Shown here: positions 1-50,139 of the stretch, in pieces | How positions within the stretch are numbered: position 1 is the stretch's first letter | Layout of the letters: each line of letters opens with the position of its first letter | NCBI GenBank assembly: GCA_012517065.1 | Contig: JAAYVR010000291.1 | Location: 1-50,139 of the forward strand | Origin: Verrucomicrobiota bacterium | GTDB lineage: Bacteria > Verrucomicrobiota > Verrucomicrobiia > Limisphaerales > J093 | Direction of reading: 5' to 3' | DNA length: 50,139 bases | Made by a program: the position numbers and the translations under genes | Notes under the pieces: model-generated | The model's database searches: none | What the model saw: the letters and a program-made list of their open reading frames with translations, nothing else | What the model was told of the DNA's origin: nothing

Positions 1-627
1 CGTGATCTGAAGGTGAGAGCGATCGAGTAAGGGGGCAGGGAGGAGTAAGTCGAGGAAAAGAAGGTAGGGGCGTTTTCAGAGACTGGAGTTGTGGGATGCC
101 GAAGGCCTGGTGAAGGAGTTCGGCGATGGGGGATTGTTTTTACGTGATGTCGTTGTCGGCTTGGTCGGCTCGGTGATCACGGTGAAATCCACAGTGGGAG
201 GGGCGTTGAACCGGGCTGGACAGTCATTGTCGCGTCAGAGGTGAAGTTTCCGGGGACTGTTGTGATGGGTTAGCGGGGGGGGTTGTGTGGCCGGAACCAA
301 TAGAGTGACAGACACGATATTGTGGCGGCCGGGTTGGACCGGGCTGGGTGCGCATTATGGCGTCATGAGTGGAGTTTAGGATGACCGGTGAGTGCGTTTG
401 GCGGGGGTTGGCGCACGCTGAACAAATAAGGTGACAGACACGATATTTTGGCCCAATTCAGTGCCACTGGCATGATCGAGATGGATGGATCAAGGCACCG
501 GTTAAGGCTTCATCTGGGGAATGAAGCGCACATTACAGTTTCAAATGTATCCTGACAAAGCGGCCGGTTTTGCCGAGGTGTGAAGGTGCGGTGCGACATC
601 CCCGGGCCGGGACTGGGATGAAGTCAT
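1..627. other. Gene-free left edge with a degenerate tandem duplication
   Basis: I see no credible gene here. The stretch holds two imperfect tandem units of about 127 bp (roughly 203-328 and 329-454). Each has a GTTGRACCGGGCTGG motif near its start and ends in GTGACAGACACGATATT. The remainder (1-200 and 455-627) shows nothing I can assign. It lies downstream of argS, which reads leftward and stops at 628. Confidence 0.6.
203..454. repeat. Imperfect tandem repeat, two units of about 127 bp
   Basis: GTGACAGACACGATATT is identical at 305-321 and 431-447 (126 bp apart). CCGGGCTGG recurs at 211 and 339 (128 bp apart), with weaker matches between, such as the stretch ending GTGAAGTTT / GTGGAGTTT. 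The terminal motif is preceded by AATAGA or AAATAAG and resembles the half-repeats of family C read on the minus strand. Confidence 0.6.
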
Positions 628-11640: not shown

Positions 11641-11808
11641 TGGTCGGTGTGATGTGGAGCATCGGTACCCCTTGAATTCGCCGGGTTGCATGCTAGAGTG
11701 GGTCCAGGCAATGGGGTTTGCCGTCCTCGGGGTTTCTTCGGGGTAAACCGCCTGAACCGGGTTCAGCGCTGATAACTCCTGCCAAACCACTTTGGTGGGA
11801 ACTTGATT

Positions 11809-13029
11809 ATGCTGGACAATATTTGGTTCACAGCGGCCATTTGGATTGGGCTGGCTTTTCTGGCCAGTATTATTTCCATTCGGGTTGGGATTTCGGTCGC
11901 GCTTATCGAAATTCTCGTGGGTGTTGCAGCGGGCAACGTTCCTCTGGTTGACGGACATTCTATTCTGCGTTCGACTGATTGGACGAATTTTCTGGCGATG
12001 CTCGGCAGCGGAGTGCTGACATTCCTTGCGGGGGCGGAAATTGATCCGGTGGCGTTACGCAAGAACTTGCGGCCCGGCCTTGCGATTGGCGCTGCGGCGT
12101 TTCTTCTGCCGTTTGGCGGGGTGTGGGCGTTTGCACAGCTTTTGCTGGGCTGGCCAGTGCAGCAGGCTCAGATTGCGGGCATTGCGCTTTCCACAACGTC
12201 GGTGGCGGTCGTGTACGCCGTCATGATCGAGACCGGCCAGAGCGAAACCGCACTGGGCAAGATGATACTTGTGGCGTGTTTCATCAACGACCTTGGAACC
12301 GTGCTGGCATTGGGGCTGATCTTTGCGAACTACGACGTGTGGTTGTTGGTGTTTGTTGTGGTGACCTGTTTGGCACTGTTCATTGTTCCAAAGCTGGCGC
12401 GGTTCGTAATATCGCGTTGCGGGGCAAAACGCGTGAGCGAGCCCGAAATCAAATTTGTCTTCTTTGTATTGTTTTTTCTTGGCGGACTGGCTTCTACAGC
12501 AAAGAGTGAAGCCGTGTTGCCGGCGTATTTGTTGGGGCTGGTTTTGGCCGGGGTTTTCTTTCACGACAAGACCTTGGTGCTGAGGATGCGGTCCATTGCA
12601 TTCGCGATGTTCACACCGTTCTATTTCATTCGAGCCGGATCATTTGTTGCCGTGTCGGCAGTCTGGACTGCGATGGGCGTGATTTTGCTGCTGCTTGCGA
12701 CGAAAATGCTGACGAAGTTCGTTGGTGTTTTTCCATTGTCGAGGTTGTATTTCATGCGGAAGCGCGAGGCCAAATACACCACACTGCTCATGTCAACAGG
12801 ACTGACTTTCGGCACCATATCCGCCCTATTCGGGCTGCAGAACAAAATCATAAGCCAGCAGCAGTACTCGATCCTTGTGACGGTGGTGATACTGAGCGCG
12901 GTGGTTCCGACTTTGATTGCACAGAAGTTTTTTGAACCTACGCGGCGGGCAATGGATGCGTGGGGCCGGTTTTATCAACGCAGGGTTAGCGTCAGGGCTG
13001 GTATGGTGAAATTGCCGAATGGAAAGTGA
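11809..13029 (+). CDS. Monovalent cation:proton antiporter, CPA2-type (Kef/NhaS-like)
   Basis: Polytopic protein of about 406 residues with 11-12 hydrophobic helices, matching the Na+/H+ exchanger domain of CPA2 carriers. The membrane core includes VALIEILVGVAAGNVP, FLAGAEIDP (the usual unwound-helix region) and FINDLGTVLALGLIFA, whose N-D pair corresponds to the ion-binding Asp region. No TrkA-N or TrkA-C domain is present, so it is not a full KefB/KefC. I start at the ATG at 11809; a TTG two codons upstream is in frame. A universal stress protein follows after 7 nt, a common antiporter partner that may regulate it. Confidence 0.85.
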   Translation: MLDNIWFTAAIWIGLAFLASIISIRVGISVALIEILVGVAAGNVPLVDGHSILRSTDWTNFLAMLGSGVLTFLAGAEIDPVALRKNLRPGLAIGAAAFLLPFGGVWAFAQLLLGWPVQQAQIAGIALSTTSVAVVYAVMIETGQSETALGKMILVACFINDLGTVLALGLIFANYDVWLLVFVVVTCLALFIVPKLARFVISRCGAKRVSEPEIKFVFFVLFFLGGLASTAKSEAVLPAYLLGLVLAGVFFHDKTLVLRMRSIAFAMFTPFYFIRAGSFVAVSAVWTAMGVILLLLATKMLTKFVGVFPLSRLYFMRKREAKYTTLLMSTGLTFGTISALFGLQNKIISQQQYSILVTVVILSAVVPTLIAQKFFEPTRRAMDAWGRFYQRRVSVRAGMVKLPNGK

Positions 13030-13036
13030 GGCGTTC

Positions 13037-13462
13037 ATGTTCACAAAGATACTGGTTGGCTATGACGGGTCCAAAGGCGGAAAGCGGGCACTACAGCGTG
13101 CCGCCGTTCTCGCGAGGGAGTATAACGCGCGCATAACAGCGTTGTGGGTAAGAGAGCCTTTGCCACGGCATTCAGACATGCCCGGCGAACCCGAGGCTGA
13201 AGCTGAAGCCGCAGCGGAGTACTTTCAGGAGAGAAAGAAAGAGGTCGAGGATGTGGCAGCGCAACACGGCATCAGGATCGACTGCGAAGTCAGGCGCGGT
13301 CATCCGGCAAAGACGATCGTCAATTTTGCCAGGGAAGGCGGCTACGACTTGATTGTGGTTGGCCACAGCGATCATTCGGAGCTTTGGGGACGTTTGTTGG
13401 GTGACACGGCAGATCGAATTAGTGATCACGCCCATTGCAGCGTGTTGATTGTTAAAGATTGA
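13037..13462 (+). CDS. Universal stress protein, UspA family
   Basis: Single Usp domain of 141 residues beginning MFTKILVGYDGSKGGKRALQRA, with the Asp in VGYDGS typical of ATP-binding members. The C-terminal nucleotide loop reads VVGHSDHSELWGRLLGDTA. Compared with the G-x2-G-x9-G-S/T signature of ATP-binding Usps, the second Gly and the final Ser/Thr are replaced by Asp, so nucleotide binding may be weakened or changed. The ATG at 13037 sits just behind GTGAGG; an ATG at 13019 would overlap the antiporter. It likely tunes or protects the antiporter under stress, judging from position only. Confidence 0.85.
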   Translation: MFTKILVGYDGSKGGKRALQRAAVLAREYNARITALWVREPLPRHSDMPGEPEAEAEAAAEYFQERKKEVEDVAAQHGIRIDCEVRRGHPAKTIVNFAREGGYDLIVVGHSDHSELWGRLLGDTADRISDHAHCSVLIVKD

Positions 13463-36310: not shown

Positions 36311-36426
36311 GAATAGCGTGCCGACCCCAATGGTTTCTCACGCGCTGCCACGCATGCAGCGGCCGTTGGCAGGCGCGAAGCGCTTGGAGTGCGGCAGCTT
36401 GCTGCCGCTTTGTTTCTATGCCCAAA

Positions 36427-39246: not shown

Positions 39247-39347
39247 GGCCTCGCAAGGGCGGTTGGCGAATCCGCGCTATTGTGGCCTTTGGCTGTTGGG
39301 CGGGGGGAGATTCTCGTGTTGGCCGGCGGGTCTTTGGAATCTCCAAG

Positions 39348-39941
39348 TCAAAACTCGAGTGGAATGCGCACAACGATCCCGCCCATGACATCGCCGACCT
39401 TGAAATCCTTTTTCGGGCTTGATGGGTGAGCGTTGTGGCACTCGGCGCACGACGGCAGAGTGGCGAGATCGGCATACACAGCCGTGAAATAGCTGCGTCC
39501 GCCGAGTTCTTCTTCGGCATAAAATGGTTCGTTTGGTTTGCGTGCGACCACCTCGAGGCCCTGTTGTTCGACCATCGTTTGGGGGCCGTGACTGTTATTG
39601 ATTGGCCAGAGGGAGCGGAGCGTGTACGAGAACTCAGCGCCTTTCTGTTGGATGCTTCGAGCGGCGTGGCGCAGCATTTGAGCGTGCACGGGCAGGCATT
39701 GTTCTGACTGCCAGTTCTCGCTTGCTGCGATCCGCCTTTGGTCTGACGCAAGCCTTTGCACGATCAGTTCTGCGTACGCCTGTCTATCGGCTGCGATCAC
39801 GGCGTGCAATGAATCGGCAAACTTTTTCAGGCTGACGGATCTGAGTTTGTGTGCTTTCTCTTGGGATTCTGCGGCGGACCATCCCGCAGCCAAAACCAGA
39901 CCAAACAGGAAAAACGCTGAGATTAGCGAAGGTGCTTTCAT
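39348..39941 (-). CDS. Periplasmic c-type haem protein, Tll0287-like (DUF3365)
   Basis: 197 residues with a signal peptide (SLISAFFLFGLVLAAGWSAA). The single CxxCH site is C165-A-E-C168-H169 in LPSCAECHNAHPSS. The segments YFTAVYADLATLPSCAECH and FKVGDVMGGIVVRIPL are typical of the Tll0287-like domain, a PAS-like c-haem module often fused to sensors. Here it stands alone, so it may be a redox or gas sensor or an electron carrier. The start codon overlaps the stop of the UnbV-type gene (ATGA), so both are translated together. Confidence 0.85.
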   Translation of the reverse strand: MKAPSLISAFFLFGLVLAAGWSAAESQEKAHKLRSVSLKKFADSLHAVIAADRQAYAELIVQRLASDQRRIAASENWQSEQCLPVHAQMLRHAARSIQQKGAEFSYTLRSLWPINNSHGPQTMVEQQGLEVVARKPNEPFYAEEELGGRSYFTAVYADLATLPSCAECHNAHPSSPKKDFKVGDVMGGIVVRIPLEF

Positions 39942-41608
39942 TGTAACGGTTCGCGCAAGACAAGGATTTGATCAACATTCACATTGGTGAGAGTCTGCGA
40001 AACTCCGCCCGGCCACCAAAGTACAACTTTGTCGATCTTGGTTCTTTGCCCGAGCCCGACATGGACGCGCGGGTCGCTTTGCATGAGGAAGCCTGAGGGG
40101 CATGTGGCTTCGGCGCGCCAGGTCTTGTCGCCCGCGTGAATCTCGATGCGTGTGCCATAGGCGTTTCTGTTGCTACGGGTGCCTTCGAGTTTGAACTTTA
40201 GCCAATGGTTGGTGGCCGGGGACCTGTTGCGCAACAGAAAGGCGCGATCGGAAATGGCTGTGATGAGAATGTCCAGTCTTCCGTCGTTGTCGAAATCGAG
40301 CACTGCATTTCCGCGGCCGTTGATGGGCGTTTTGAAGAACGCGCCGCCTTTTGGGCCTGCGTCGGTGAACCGCGCGGTTCCATCGTTTTCGAGGAGGAGG
40401 GACACCATGCCGTCCAGCGTGAATGCGCTGCCATTTGCGATGCACAAATCAAGGTCGCCGTCGTTTTCCATGTCGATGAAAACCCCTCCCCACGCGGTGT
40501 ATTTCTGAGTGAGGAGGCCGAGGCCTGATGCCCACATGCGGTCTTCGTACAGTCCTCTTGGCGTCCGAAGGTAGAGTGAGCCGTAACCGAGGCGTGTTAC
40601 GTAAATGTCGAGCAACCCATCGCCGTTGACATCGCCGACTGCGGCATTCATTGAGCCCGGGGCTTCGCCGATGGAATTGAAAGCGACCCCGGCGTCGATG
40701 GCGATGTCGTGGAACCTTCCTTTGCCATCGTTTATCCAAAGCAGATTTGGCGTATCATCGTTCGAGATGTAAATGTCGGTGTCGCCGTCCCAATCGCAAT
40801 CGAACGCTGTCACCGACATTGCGCGGTCGCCTGTGCGATTGAGGCCGGCTGCTTGTGTGATGTCTTCGAATGTGCCATCGCGGCGGTTCCGGTAAAGGCG
40901 GTTTGGCTCGCCCTTGTATGCGAGCGGCCCCGGATAAGCGCCAGGGTTTTGTTCTGACTCCTGAGACGGGACGTAGGTCAGGTAATTGGCGACGAACAAG
41001 TCCAGCCACCCGTCGTTATCTGCGTCGAGAAACACTGCTGATATGCCTGTTCCGCTGTCGGCGGTGCCGGATTTGGCGGTGACGTCTTCGAATGTGCCAT
41101 CACCACGATTTCGGTATAGGATGTTTTGGCCAATGTTGACCACGTAAAGGTCGGTGTAACCGTCATTGTCGAAATCGCCGGCAGCAGCGGCGCTGCCGTA
41201 ACCGTGTCCGGCAACGCCGGCTTTCTCCGTGACATCTTCGAATGTGCCGTCGCCGCGATTTCGGTAGAGGCGGTTTGGGTGGCGCGGTGTGTTTGGCGGT
41301 GCGCTTGTTACGCCGTCCAAAGGCCCCCAGTTGACGAGGTAAATATCCATGAAGCCGTCGTTGTCGTAGTCGAACACTGCGCCACCAGCGCCGTTGGACA
41401 GGAGGATGTTGGCTATTTGCTTGTGGCAGAATTGATGCACGAAGTTCAAGCGGGCTTTTTGGGTAACATCCTCAAACCGGTCAGCGGGGTTGAGTTGGAT
41501 TGGCGGTGTGGGAGGGCGCGGATTTGACCATGAATCCGCTGCAAGAATTGGGATCAGGCTACCCAGCAAAGCTGCGGTGCCAACTGCGTATATGCTGTAT
41601 CGGCCCAC
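39938..41608 (-). CDS. CRTAC1/ASPIC-UnbV family protein with FG-GAP/VCBS repeats
   Basis: Exported beta-propeller protein, 556 residues from a GTG at 41608 that opens a good signal peptide (MGRYSIYAVGTAALLGSLIP). The frame is open to an ATG at 41806 (622 residues), which would overlap the divergent gene fragment and place the hydrophobic segment 68 residues in. Calcium-binding VCBS-type repeats such as FDYDNDGFMDIYLVN and DFDNDGYTDLYVVN recur about seven times. The C-terminal ASPIC/UnbV domain covers about the last 90 residues (NAYGTRIEIHAGDKTW, VHVGLGQRTKIDKVVLWWPG). The family is linked to surface adhesion and extracellular matrix; the biochemical role is unclear. It heads a two-gene unit with the haem protein. 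Confidence 0.85.
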   Translation of the reverse strand: MGRYSIYAVGTAALLGSLIPILAADSWSNPRPPTPPIQLNPADRFEDVTQKARLNFVHQFCHKQIANILLSNGAGGAVFDYDNDGFMDIYLVNWGPLDGVTSAPPNTPRHPNRLYRNRGDGTFEDVTEKAGVAGHGYGSAAAAGDFDNDGYTDLYVVNIGQNILYRNRGDGTFEDVTAKSGTADSGTGISAVFLDADNDGWLDLFVANYLTYVPSQESEQNPGAYPGPLAYKGEPNRLYRNRRDGTFEDITQAAGLNRTGDRAMSVTAFDCDWDGDTDIYISNDDTPNLLWINDGKGRFHDIAIDAGVAFNSIGEAPGSMNAAVGDVNGDGLLDIYVTRLGYGSLYLRTPRGLYEDRMWASGLGLLTQKYTAWGGVFIDMENDGDLDLCIANGSAFTLDGMVSLLLENDGTARFTDAGPKGGAFFKTPINGRGNAVLDFDNDGRLDILITAISDRAFLLRNRSPATNHWLKFKLEGTRSNRNAYGTRIEIHAGDKTWRAEATCPSGFLMQSDPRVHVGLGQRTKIDKVVLWWPGGVSQTLTNVNVDQILVLREPLQ

Positions 41609-41739
41609 GAATGTGGTGACAGAATCCTTTTGAAGTGACTCGTCTCGGATTGAGCGCACGGCGCTGTTAATAGTCTGTCTCGGAAGCCAATTCCAGAGCA
41701 AAAACAAGTTCGTTTTGTTATGGCCGTGGGCACTCGAAC

Positions 41740-42117
41740 TTGAAGGATTTCCTTCACCAAAGATACCGCGAAGTGGAACGTTACATTCCTCCGGGTGCTT
41801 CTCCATCGCAGGAACGGCAACTGCTACTTGGGGCCTACTTTACCCACGAGTACAGTCTCGAGGCCCCTGCGCTTTTCAATCCATCAATAGTGCTGCACCC
41901 GGATCAAACCGACCTCGAACCGGGATCGTTGAGGTTCGTTTTGAGTTTGCGGCCAACCGGCGAAGGTCACATTTCCTCGATCACCTTTCGCACGGGGGTG
42001 ATCGGTCCGAAGCACAGAATCACGGTGACACCGTCTGCCCCGTTTGTTTCAGAGCCCGAAAGAGTACGGAATGCCGGCTACGAACAAACACTGTTCCGAA
42101 GGAAACTCAGCGAGTAA
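41740..42117 (+). pseudogene. N-terminal fragment of a GH130-like glycosidase/phosphorylase, truncated at a C repeat
   Basis: Open frame of 125 codons from a TTG. The stretches LLLGAYFTHEYSLEAPALFNPS and HPDQTDLEPGSLRFVLSLRP, then TGEGHISSITFRTGVI, match as I recall the N-terminal part of large GH130-type beta-mannoside phosphorylase-like proteins, which are several hundred residues long. The catalytic propeller is absent. The stop codon TAA (42115-42117) is followed directly by the C half-repeat CAACGTGTCTGTCCCC, so the reading frame ends at the element's edge. The 5' part is also uncertain, because no family sequence is seen before the TTG. Most likely a dead remnant. Confidence 0.6.
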
Positions 42118-42381
42118 CAACGTGTCTGTCCCCATATCTGCATCCGAGGGGTTCCTCCACAGACTTCGGCAACCGCGGATTGGAACAAGGGACAATTTGC
42201 GGTTCACCCGGAAATCAGGGGGCAAAACCCAAACCATGAGCCTGTCACCTTGTCCAACTTACCCCCAAAGACCGTACCATTTTGACCGCCCTACTCACGG
42301 CCAGAAAGGCAGATACGCAGGAATTGACGAACATCGCAGCCTGAAAATATCCGCGAGTATTAACGATTCTCCAATATAATC
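42118..42381 (+). repeat. Family C repeat, copy 4 (long form)
   Basis: Half-repeats CAACGTGTCTGTCCCCATAT (42118) and CCATGAGCCTGTCACCTTGT (42234), spacing 116 nt. The downstream 130 nt align with copy 3. Its left edge truncates the GH130-like fragment and its right edge touches an eroded B element. Confidence 0.85.
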
Positions 42382-42440
42382 ATATACCCTGAGCAGTCTG
42401 CGAAACGGGTGTCTTCAAGAGATCAAGGAATATGCGGGCC
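42382..42440 (-). repeat. Family B repeat, copy 3, inverted and eroded
   Basis: Reads CCCTGAGCAGTCTGCGAAAC then GGGTGTCTTCAAG and ends AATATGCGGGCC (42429-42440). This is the reverse complement of copies 1 and 2. The opposite arm (GCCCGCATATTTCAT) is degraded to AATCATAT. It abuts an A copy that keeps the reference orientation, so B is flipped relative to A here. Confidence 0.75.
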
Positions 42441-42503
42441 CCGGAAATCTCACCCGAATGAAGCTTTGGGTGTCTTGGGCTGGCCAAGCGGTGTGATTTC
42501 CGG
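42439..42503 (+). repeat. Family A hairpin repeat, copy 6
   Basis: Arms CCCCGGAAATCTCACCC (about 42439-42455) and GGTGTGATTTCCGGTTT (about 42489-42505). The loop GAATGAAGCTTTGGGTGTCT retains the reference sequence and orientation. Confidence 0.8.
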
Positions 42504-42506
42504 TTT

Positions 42507-42574
42507 AGCCCGCAATTTCACCCGGCAGCCGACCAAAGCACACCGAAAACAGACATTCCGGTGCGATTTCCGGA
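42507..42574 (-). repeat. Family A hairpin repeat, copy 7 (reverse orientation)
   Basis: Arms AGCCCGCAATTTCACCCGG (42507-42525) and CCGGTGCGATTTCCGGA (42558-42574). The loop GACCAAAGCACACCGAAAAC is a diverged reverse complement of the reference loop. It lies 3 nt from copy 6, giving a head-to-head pair in the gap downstream of the matrixin gene. Confidence 0.75.
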
Positions 42575-42677
42575 TCGCCGATCTCAATGAGGCAAATCAA
42601 CCGCCGGGCAAGCTGAGGCTTTGCCCGGTGCGAACACCGTTTACGCTGCAGATGGGAGCGGGCAGAAAACCGCAATC

Positions 42678-44498
42678 TCAAAGCCCCGGAAGCAGTTCGA
42701 CAAGATAGAATCGGATGCGATTCGTGGCTGTGGTGTCAAGGAACTCGGTGTGTGTACCGGTGGCTGTAACCGTGGACCCGACCTTCCGCCATGTGTCCGA
42801 CGGCGCGAAACTGTCGCGTGTCCAGATCTGATACCTTGCGCCGGGCACGCTGTTCCATCCGATGTTTGTTCCCGACGATGCAAGGGTAACATCGTTGACT
42901 TCCACCGTCGGCACTGAAGAACCGGCCATTGGGTCAGACCCGGCGAGGTATTCGTACTTGTTGTTGAATCCGTCAAAGTCAGGGTCTGCGCTTGGCCCTG
43001 CTTCCGCTCCTACCCATAAAGGGAAATAACGTCGCTGGAACATGTCGTCTAGCCCATCGTAGTTGTCGTCAAACCATTCAGGAGCAACTTCGAAAAACCC
43101 GTTTGCATAAGCGACGTCCTGGCCGCGGGACACAATGAGGCTGCGCAACCCCGGGAACGCGTTTTTGCTGACGCTGACCCGTGCGCAAATCAGATTGTAT
43201 CCCCACGCGTTTGTTATTCCGATGGGCTCGAGTGTTACGTCGTTGCCGGTGACGCCCAAGGTTGCGCCAAGGAGCGAATCGCGGCTGTAAACACCGACGA
43301 TCCAGTTGCTTTGGCCGGCGCGCATCACAGAAGTTGCATTGGAAGGGAACGGATGAGCCTGGTCCTGGCTTGCGGGCCGGATTCCTACGATGCGGATCGG
43401 CGGGTTGGCAACCGTGACTGCGAAATTGAGCGTGGAGGTTTTGCCTGTGGTGATTGTGACGTTCGTGCCCGTTGTCGGGAGAAATGAAGTCAAAGCCGAT
43501 GTGTAATCCGGGCCGATGTCATTGCCCCGAACAAGAAACGGGCTGGATATCGTGGGGTCCAATGGGCAGACACGGACTCTGTACGTTCCGGGAACGAGCG
43601 CCGGCAGACTGTATGTTCCGTCGGCTCTGGAAACAGCTGCGGCGGCAATTGTGCCAGCCGGGTTTTCAGCGATGATCACAGCGCCGAGCACGTTCGTTCC
43701 GCCCGCCGTAATCTTGCCCTGAATAGCGCCGCGCATTTCGAGCAGGCCAGCCGCCGGATACAGAAACTGAACGGCCAGTCGTTCGTCCGTGGACAGACCG
43801 AGATACGTTCCGATCCCGCCGGGGTCGCGGTAAAACATTGTTGCACCACCCAACGGAGAGTGTTCGAGCCCGATAAAATGCCCGATTTCATGCGTGACAA
43901 TTGACTCGACGAAGTAAGACCCGCCGACACCGTCCGGGTTGGTTGACCATGAATAATTTACGCCGTTCAACACGAGGTCTGCGCCCACCAACAACCAACC
44001 GGCACGCGCAATAAAGGTCACCGCAGTCGCACCAACGACGTTCACGCTGCCGCCCGCAACCCATGTGCTCTTTTTCGCCCAATACACTACGTTTGTGTTG
44101 TCCAGCTCGTCAACGTCAACTCCGGACGCGACCGTCCCGCCTTCCTCGAACCTGAGGATCGAGTTTGGGGTGGATTGCCACACCGCAAACGCCGCGCGAA
44201 CAGCGTTGAGTTCTGAGTCGCGGTTGGTTTGGGACCAGCCGTCATTTGCCAGGAAGAAGCGGACTGCGCGGGTTTTGGGGTTGACCACGTTGGTGCTCAC
44301 AAGGTTCGTTCGTGTCTGAGGCGACACCAAATCCCACTTCACAGGGTTACCACTGGCATCGCGCTTGAACGTAGCCGCCTCACTGTTGCAATGCACAAAC
44401 GCAGCAAGCACTGATATCAGTGCGCCGATCAACTCGGCTAGGTAGGCGCTTCGACCGCGTGCTGCCAGCAACAATCCAGCTTGCTTTAAGTCCTGCAT
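42678..44498 (-). CDS. Matrixin-like (M10) zinc metalloprotease, secreted
   Basis: 606 residues. A hydrophobic N-terminal stretch (YLAELIGALISVLAAFVHC) fits a signal peptide or lipobox-like end. The zinc site HEIGHFIGLEH lies at 203-213, and the Met-turn candidate is M221 in GGATMFY, both matrixin-type. The N-terminal region VRFFLANDGWSQTNRDSELNAVRAAFAVWQ matches the matrixin strand-helix core. After about 255 come a carboxypeptidase-regulatory-like beta domain (YSLPALVPGTYRVRVCPLD), an Ig/TIG-like part and a C-terminal segment found in secreted verrucomicrobial proteins. It starts 9 nt after the 187-residue gene, so they are probably co-transcribed. Confidence 0.88.
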   Translation of the reverse strand: MQDLKQAGLLLAARGRSAYLAELIGALISVLAAFVHCNSEAATFKRDASGNPVKWDLVSPQTRTNLVSTNVVNPKTRAVRFFLANDGWSQTNRDSELNAVRAAFAVWQSTPNSILRFEEGGTVASGVDVDELDNTNVVYWAKKSTWVAGGSVNVVGATAVTFIARAGWLLVGADLVLNGVNYSWSTNPDGVGGSYFVESIVTHEIGHFIGLEHSPLGGATMFYRDPGGIGTYLGLSTDERLAVQFLYPAAGLLEMRGAIQGKITAGGTNVLGAVIIAENPAGTIAAAAVSRADGTYSLPALVPGTYRVRVCPLDPTISSPFLVRGNDIGPDYTSALTSFLPTTGTNVTITTGKTSTLNFAVTVANPPIRIVGIRPASQDQAHPFPSNATSVMRAGQSNWIVGVYSRDSLLGATLGVTGNDVTLEPIGITNAWGYNLICARVSVSKNAFPGLRSLIVSRGQDVAYANGFFEVAPEWFDDNYDGLDDMFQRRYFPLWVGAEAGPSADPDFDGFNNKYEYLAGSDPMAGSSVPTVEVNDVTLASSGTNIGWNSVPGARYQIWTRDSFAPSDTWRKVGSTVTATGTHTEFLDTTATNRIRFYLVELLPGL

Positions 44499-49407: not shown

Positions 49408-50139
49408 ACACCGTCCGAACGCAGCAGCCAGGAATCCACCCGAACCCCGGCCATCCTGCTGGACATCGGTTTAACCCCCGTATTTCATCACATCCCAGTA
49501 ACAGGGTCTAACACGGTCTTTTCGACGCGGGCCGGTCGCAACTTGAATTCCAGCTTTGGGTGCCGATTTTCCCGAAAATGCAGCAGGGTAATCCTCAGAA
49601 TGAGCAATACTGTCTCGCAACGCTGCGCAACAGCTTGTGGGTTCGAGGTCTGTTATTCTCGGGATTTCCCCCGAGGGGGACTGCAACGGTGACAGGCTAC
49701 CAGGGCTAAGCGCCACTCGCTACCACGGAGCTTGGCCAGCACCTGGTCCCGTTTGACTCTCGGAGTGTGTTGTGCGATTTTACTTCCAAATAGAGGGACA
49801 GACACGGTATTTGGGCGCCCGCGGTTCTGACCCGGACCCGCCCAACCAGTCGGCCAATGGGAGGCACGGCTGCGCGCCCGTCGCTCTGTTACAAGGAGAA
49901 CAACAATACAAATCAAGGAGGTTGTAATGAGACTGCCCAGAACTAAACTTCAGGGTAAAACCGTTCTGTATCACTGCATGTCTAGCCCGGAAATCTCACC
50001 GCAATGAAGCTCTGGGTCTTTTGGTCTGGTCAGGCGGCGAGATTTCCGGGCTAGTCGGTGGTACAACGTGCGGATGGACCGGCCCGGGACGGTGTGTGCC
50101 GAGAGGTTCAGGAGCGTTGTTGTGGAGGACAATCCTGAG
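49408..50139. other. Gene-free right edge with repeat motifs
   Basis: No credible gene. It holds a small hairpin CTCGGG(49658-49663)/CCCGAG(49670-49675), a motif GGGACAGACACGGTATTT at 49795-49812 related to the left-edge repeats, and a full A hairpin at 49983-50054. Nothing else is assigned. Confidence 0.55.
49983..50054 (+). repeat. Family A hairpin repeat, copy 8
   Basis: Longest arms of the family: TAGCCCGGAAATCTCACCGC (49983-50002) and GGCGGCGAGATTTCCGGGCTA (50034-50054). With the flanking bases the ends read CTAG...CTAG. The loop AATGAAGCTCTGGGTCTTTTG is in the reference orientation. Confidence 0.85.

Follow-up and report, generated by a model that had tools for sequence, protein, structure and literature searches.

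A putative GH130-family gene remnant ends at the fixed edge of a high-copy modular repeat in a Verrucomicrobiota genome

Introduction

Repeats that resemble those described here are known from two systems linked to transposases. In the sections of Di Nocera et al. (2013, PMC3733652) on which we draw, some TIRs of tyrosine transposases (TIRYT) share the sequence GGGGWSAS, and the TIR repeat families occur dispersed, in dimers, or in clusters. REP/BIME elements and the REPINs mobilised by RAYTs, as far as the sources used here describe them, are high-copy intergenic palindromes arranged in composite mosaics and linked to Y1-type transposases, and all of these features recur at the present locus; GTAG-type REPs lie outside this comparison. 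The gene that adjoins the repeat at this locus belongs to the GH130 family (mannoside phosphorylases, PF04041).

We analyzed a stretch of 50,139 nucleotides from a Verrucomicrobiota bacterium (hereafter the window), which is one contig (C156) of an assembly of 298 contigs and 5.26 Mb with 95% completeness. An initial annotation had described a GH130-like gene in this window that is cut off at the edge of a repeat, denoted C. We compared the locus with G001, a same-genus genome that serves as the sister, and with more distant relatives.

Results

Remnant of a GH130-family gene

The open frame at 41740-42117 was confirmed in the window and, as initially annotated, it belongs to a truncated GH130-family gene. 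Searched against 96 relatives and its own genome, the remnant protein matched 21 of the 96 relatives (22 of 97 counting its own genome), the best match having 72% identity. Twenty of these matches cover nearly the whole fragment (E 7.4e-57 to 3.9e-36) and lie in relatives with stop-to-stop frames of 485-637 aa, and intact genes run past the point where the remnant breaks off; the remaining match, in G009, ends close to a contig end. The two nearest relatives encode 484-aa proteins with an ATG start and come from the same taxonomic family, within which the intact gene has been kept. When an intact 484-aa relative was used to search the window's own genome, the remnant was found to be 67% identical over aa 59-198. 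The proteins L035 and L036 matched the window by tblastn with 66% and 63% identity across 143 aa, and the DNA-level match spans 41731-42107 (69%). On the basis of this protein and DNA homology, 41719-42114 (+), which stays open for 132 codons, is taken to be a dead gene piece of the GH130 family (about aa 59-194 of 484) with neither a start nor a catalytic domain. The family's start codon does not correspond to the TTG at 41740.

The Pfam GH130 domain (PF04041) spans aa 262-483 in both intact 484-aa relatives scanned (95 bits, cut-off 26) and begins after the remnant's break point. The same stretch of L035, one of these two relatives, matches solved beta-1,2-mannobiose/oligomannan phosphorylases, e.g. 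9fj8 and 7fip. The profile search proposed with the initial annotation gave zero matches between the remnant and the Pfam and NCBIfam models. Since the remnant alone matches no model, its GH130 label comes from the intact relatives that carry the domain. It is thus like the family in its homology to relatives that score over the cut-off, and differs in comprising only the part ahead of the domain. The remnant deviates at 4 of 38 columns that are invariant across 19 relatives, compared with 0 of 38 for its two nearest relatives. This sign of decay is weak, because two of the four unusual residues sit at the left edge, where misalignment is possible, and six of the 19 relatives deviate too, at 1 to 6 columns (L053 at 6 of 44 and L052 at 3 of 41).

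Both edges of the remnant are breaks. At the right edge, six aligned intact relatives continue through the break point, and the last homologous codon is GAG at 42112-42114. C copies align from 42116, and their conservation begins with A42116, so that a single base (T42115) separates the gene homology from C. The TAA stop at 42115-42117 (+) therefore owes its existence to the junction, its bases A42116 and A42117 being part of C. The right break does coincide with C, as annotated, although the stop codon overlaps C by two bases rather than abutting it. The left cut had gone unmentioned: homology starts at 41719 (protein) or 41731 (DNA), and about the first 58 family residues are missing. A clear repeat was not seen at this left break, and 41634-41740 had no match in the sampled pieces. 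A GTCTGTC heptamer, spotted after the fact, begins at 41673, where the window first departs from G001.

Comparison with the sister locus

Contig C357 of G001 matches the window at 39289-41543 (91%) and 42678-43638 (88%), and the spacing between the two matched stretches is 155 bp in G001 versus 1134 bp in the window. In a finer alignment the window could be followed with gaps to 41672, and 41673-42677 was replaced by about 25 bp in G001; the left border of this block is uncertain by some bases, the alignment being gapped over 41544-41672. The gene fragment, C, a hairpin module, and a tail form this block of about 1.0 kb and are all missing together from G001, in which the flanking genes are adjacent in the same order and orientation. 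The sister locus, where an intact gene had been looked for, therefore lacks the fragment as well as C. With the same gene order on either side in G001, misassembly at the repeat is unlikely.

The left neighbour of the block encodes an FG-GAP/UnbV_ASPIC protein (39938-41671, -; identified by Pfam, with G001 homology from aa 46, which corresponds to 41671). The right neighbour encodes a Peptidase_M10-type protein (42678-44498, -; identified by Pfam, with an 88% G001 match over aa 288-606 that is cut by a contig end). The open frame of the ASPIC gene reaches 41806, 45 codons above the start of the G001 homology and antisense into the GH130 remnant. Judged from that homology, the true start is probably at or below 41671, and annotators should be aware that an automatic start call would fall too far upstream. 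Outside the genus, an ASPIC gene was found within the 1.5 kb fetched next to none of seven M10 orthologues, all near-full matches (G005, G006, G014-G017, and G019), so that gain here and loss in G001 are unpolarised. Elsewhere in the window, a fluoride riboswitch (RF01734, 39.4 bits) was identified at 11698-11788 (+), just ahead of an ORF at 11803-13029, the N-terminus of which we take to resemble a membrane cation/proton antiporter; a short ORF (13019-13462) comes after it.

Search for the missing gene parts

A tblastn search with relatives did not find the 3' part of the GH130 gene beyond C in the window, and GH130 homology was likewise not found in the tail (42511-42677). With the intact protein as query, the own assembly, 95% complete, yielded the remnant and a 36%-identical paralogue on contig C59 and nothing else, which also answers the initial suggestion that the missing 3' part might lie elsewhere in the chromosome. 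G001 has the paralogue only, without any other piece of the GH130 gene. Two candidate arrangements were rejected on these results: a clean insertion in which C would be followed by the 3' half of the gene, because 3' homology is found neither past C nor elsewhere in the assembly, and a missing part elsewhere in the assembly, because the distant C59 paralogue is the sole other match. With 3' homology absent from both window and genome, gene halves do not flank C. The claim that C simply interrupted the gene is thus not supported, as the 5' part is missing, the 3' part was not found, and G001 lacks both fragment and C.

We also analyzed the surroundings of the intact gene in relatives. In G002 a 775-aa glycosyltransferase gene stands before the intact GH130-family gene, and in G005 the stretch ahead of the intact gene encodes a C-terminal part that resembles this glycosyltransferase. 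The G002 partner has no close match in the window's genome (best 26% identity). In the regions fetched around the intact gene in seven relatives, the neighbours of the window fragment were absent.

Structure and copy number of repeat C

Repeat C was characterized in 955 kb of its own genome, sampled as 54 pieces that are non-random, many having been picked as C carriers. The 22-nt motif at its 5' end (AACAACGTGTCTGTCCCCATAT, 42116-42137, +) has 218 copies in these 955 kb at up to five mismatches, 211 of them away from piece ends; five Markov control sequences, each of about the same length as the sample, contained 0, 1, 1, 0, and 0 copies. The window's C stretch had 135 matches, of which 54 begin at base 1-5, and 48 of those extend to base 100 or beyond, defining the body of C at 42116-42380 (+). 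A diverged inner copy of the motif can be read within the body at 42232-42253. By crude clustering, the left flanks of the 48 bodies fall into four recurrent families (16, 14, 11, and 3, together 44) plus 4 singletons. The GH130 remnant is one of the four singleton flanks, and the C edge is the same in all 48.

The C body is followed by further modules. A second repeat module (42384-42454, +), at which match starts cluster at query positions 265-270, recurs twice more in the window, in inverted orientation. A hairpin module (CCGGAAATCTCACC...GGTGTGATTTCCGG, 42441-42503, +) is overlapped, in each position bin, by 55 to 85 matches from the 955 kb, counts in which a palindrome may match twice. 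The tail (42511-42677) is unmatched in the 955 kb of its own genome and in 635 kb sampled from G001, and 20 nt of it (42554-42573) are an inverted copy (90%) of an arm of the hairpin module. Most matches to the C stretch begin at base 1 or around positions 265 and 325, and frequent end points lie near 130-135, 260, 335, or 385-395. Because starts and ends cluster at recurrent positions, C itself is composite. A cluster of 80 motif copies holds C bodies together with other short modules. C is thus a high-copy modular repeat with a fixed 5' end. Another recurrent hairpin module (TGGAGTGCGGCAGCTTGCTGCCGCTTTG) was observed directly before the motif at window position 36424 and in many left flanks, where it precedes the motif in a cluster of 52 of the 211 copies.

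Scoring the best 40 of 754 first-look candidates in its own genome gave at least 53 matches to C. Among the candidates scored in 40 genomes searched, C was seen in its own genome and G001 only (in G005, G010, and G014, the candidates scored were 17 of 62, 55, and 18). An exact-motif scan of a genome collection that possibly did not include its own genome returned at least 8 loci among the matches listed, all in one MAG. The C body had no conserved fold (-83.5 versus -79.2 +/- 5.0 in 30 column shuffles), and no Rfam match at gathering cut-offs was found at C. A literature search with the letters of the motif gave no related work, judged by title among the matches listed.

Relation to Y1 transposases

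The genome contains eight Y1_Tnp matches (HUH transposases), all above the curated cut-off. At six of these loci a GTGTCTGTCCC motif of the form AAATA(A/C/T)CGTGTCTGTCCCTCTATTTG lies near the gene, and the six may be copies of one element; at the other two no such motif was found at up to one mismatch to the core. The 22-nt end of C shares its core with this Y1-adjacent motif. C's own end was found beside the Y1 gene at 0 of the 8 loci, several of which are cut by contig ends that put the second side of the gene out of view. Solo copies of the Y1-adjacent motif (GTGTCTGTCCC and GTGTCTGTCAC forms) were observed near both ends of the window's contig, at 49767-49816 (-) and 277-452 (-); several Y1 matches are likewise located at contig ends.

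CTGTCCCC lies within the conserved 5' end of C, and its reverse complement GGGGACAG fits the GGGGWSAS sequence as given in the cited sections (PMC3733652). In its sequence, C would therefore fit the TIR/TIRYT repeats described there, with which it has in common this end and a related motif beside resident Y1 genes. It differs from them as described in those sections in that the motif heads several different, shuffled modules and in that the C end is missing beside the Y1 genes. C differs from REP/BIME elements and REPINs, as portrayed in the sources used, in the lack of a conserved fold in its body. The common core suggests that C may have been mobilised by a Y1 transposase.

Turnover between sister genomes

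We compared 17 of 19 listed piece pairs between the window's genome and G001. In four gaps the motif is present here with firm anchors on both sides (the window, L209/L148, L134/L165, and L219/L180), and in none of the four G001 counterparts was the motif found, even at five mismatches. The C body is present in two of these gaps, the window's and L134's. The L069/L182 gap has the motif on both sides, the L070/L200 gap is weakly anchored, and other stretches exist in G001 only. These results support that motif-bearing blocks turn over between the sister genomes, with gain and loss not separated. One of the stretches unique to G001 (L175, 2362-2742, G001:C590; 381 bp) has CGCAG at both borders and resembles an insertion that made a short duplication. 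In the sister gap of L134 (L165, G001:C20), ACGTTGAACGTTGT-like units are repeated in tandem over an array that is apparently shorter in the window's genome.

We also searched for other remnants at singleton motif edges. Twenty of 51 distinct frames (53 rows) were scanned with Pfam, giving matches to LysM, Peptidase_S13, and zinc ribbon only, and no obvious truncation was seen among them.

Discussion

The reading we prefer, with a probability of roughly 0.55, is that a C-led repeat module inserted into a GH130-family gene by its fixed 5' end. Recombination between the dense repeats, or deletion among them, would then have taken away the 3' part of the gene, and the 5' part would have been lost as well. 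That C cut the gene itself is plausible; the action of a transposase, the sequence in which events took place, and the deletion are reconstructed from the present arrangement. This reading is favored, at the sequence level, by the intact genes of relatives, by the fragment being the sole piece in the genome, by the constant edge of C, by a sister that lacks both fragment and C, and by the core common with the Y1 motif. Against it stand the unpolarised gain or loss, a left break without a clear repeat, the weak sign of decay in a frame still open for 132 codons, the L069/L182 and L070/L200 sister gaps, and the C end that is missing from all eight Y1 loci.

The joint absence of fragment and C from G001 could also mean that the fragment was never a resident gene here and came with the block of about 1.0 kb, either between repeat modules or via joining during repair. 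The cuts at both ends of the fragment would agree with this, as would the intact genes of the seven relatives, whose fetched regions lack the window fragment's neighbours, and, post hoc, the GTCTGTC heptamer at the first G001-differing base (41673). A second motif-bracketed gene piece was not found among the 20 singleton-left-edge frames, in a Pfam scan that misses the present fragment too, and we hold arrival with the block to be possible but doubtful. If C instead already lay downstream of the gene, a deletion or recombination ending at C could have removed the 3' part with no insertion into the gene at all, in a genome where repeats are many and intergenic differences between sisters are large. 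A random deletion end is unlikely to fall exactly on the first base of C and would usually eat into it, which makes this order of events unlikely. In a metagenome assembly of 298 contigs, a repeat of high copy number may also give rise to a chimeric join, but the flanks keep the order and orientation of G001 and a false join would need two matching errors, so an artefact is very improbable. The 132 open codons and 67% identity might finally be read as a working short protein of 125 aa, a reading to which we give almost no credence for a frame that occurs once in the genome, has neither the family's start codon nor its catalytic domain, and ends at a stop made by the repeat.

Under the insertion-and-deletion reading, C would have arrived after the gene, as initially proposed. 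This order is likely, yet it would not hold if the fragment came as part of the block or if C predates the deletion. The mobility that had been ascribed to C is probable, given its copy number, its fixed 5' edge, the presence or absence of whole blocks, and the core common with the Y1 motif; the part of a Y1 transposase in it is suggested by that core. More speculatively, and in our view improbably, the 22-nt motif might be a joining point at which a Y1 transposase repeatedly sets modules and host gene pieces in series, so that intergenic regions would grow as motif-led mosaics that capture and display gene fragments.

The results suggest that two species of this Verrucomicrobiota genus differ by entire blocks in their repeat-rich intergenic stretches, and that one such block holds the GH130 gene remnant.
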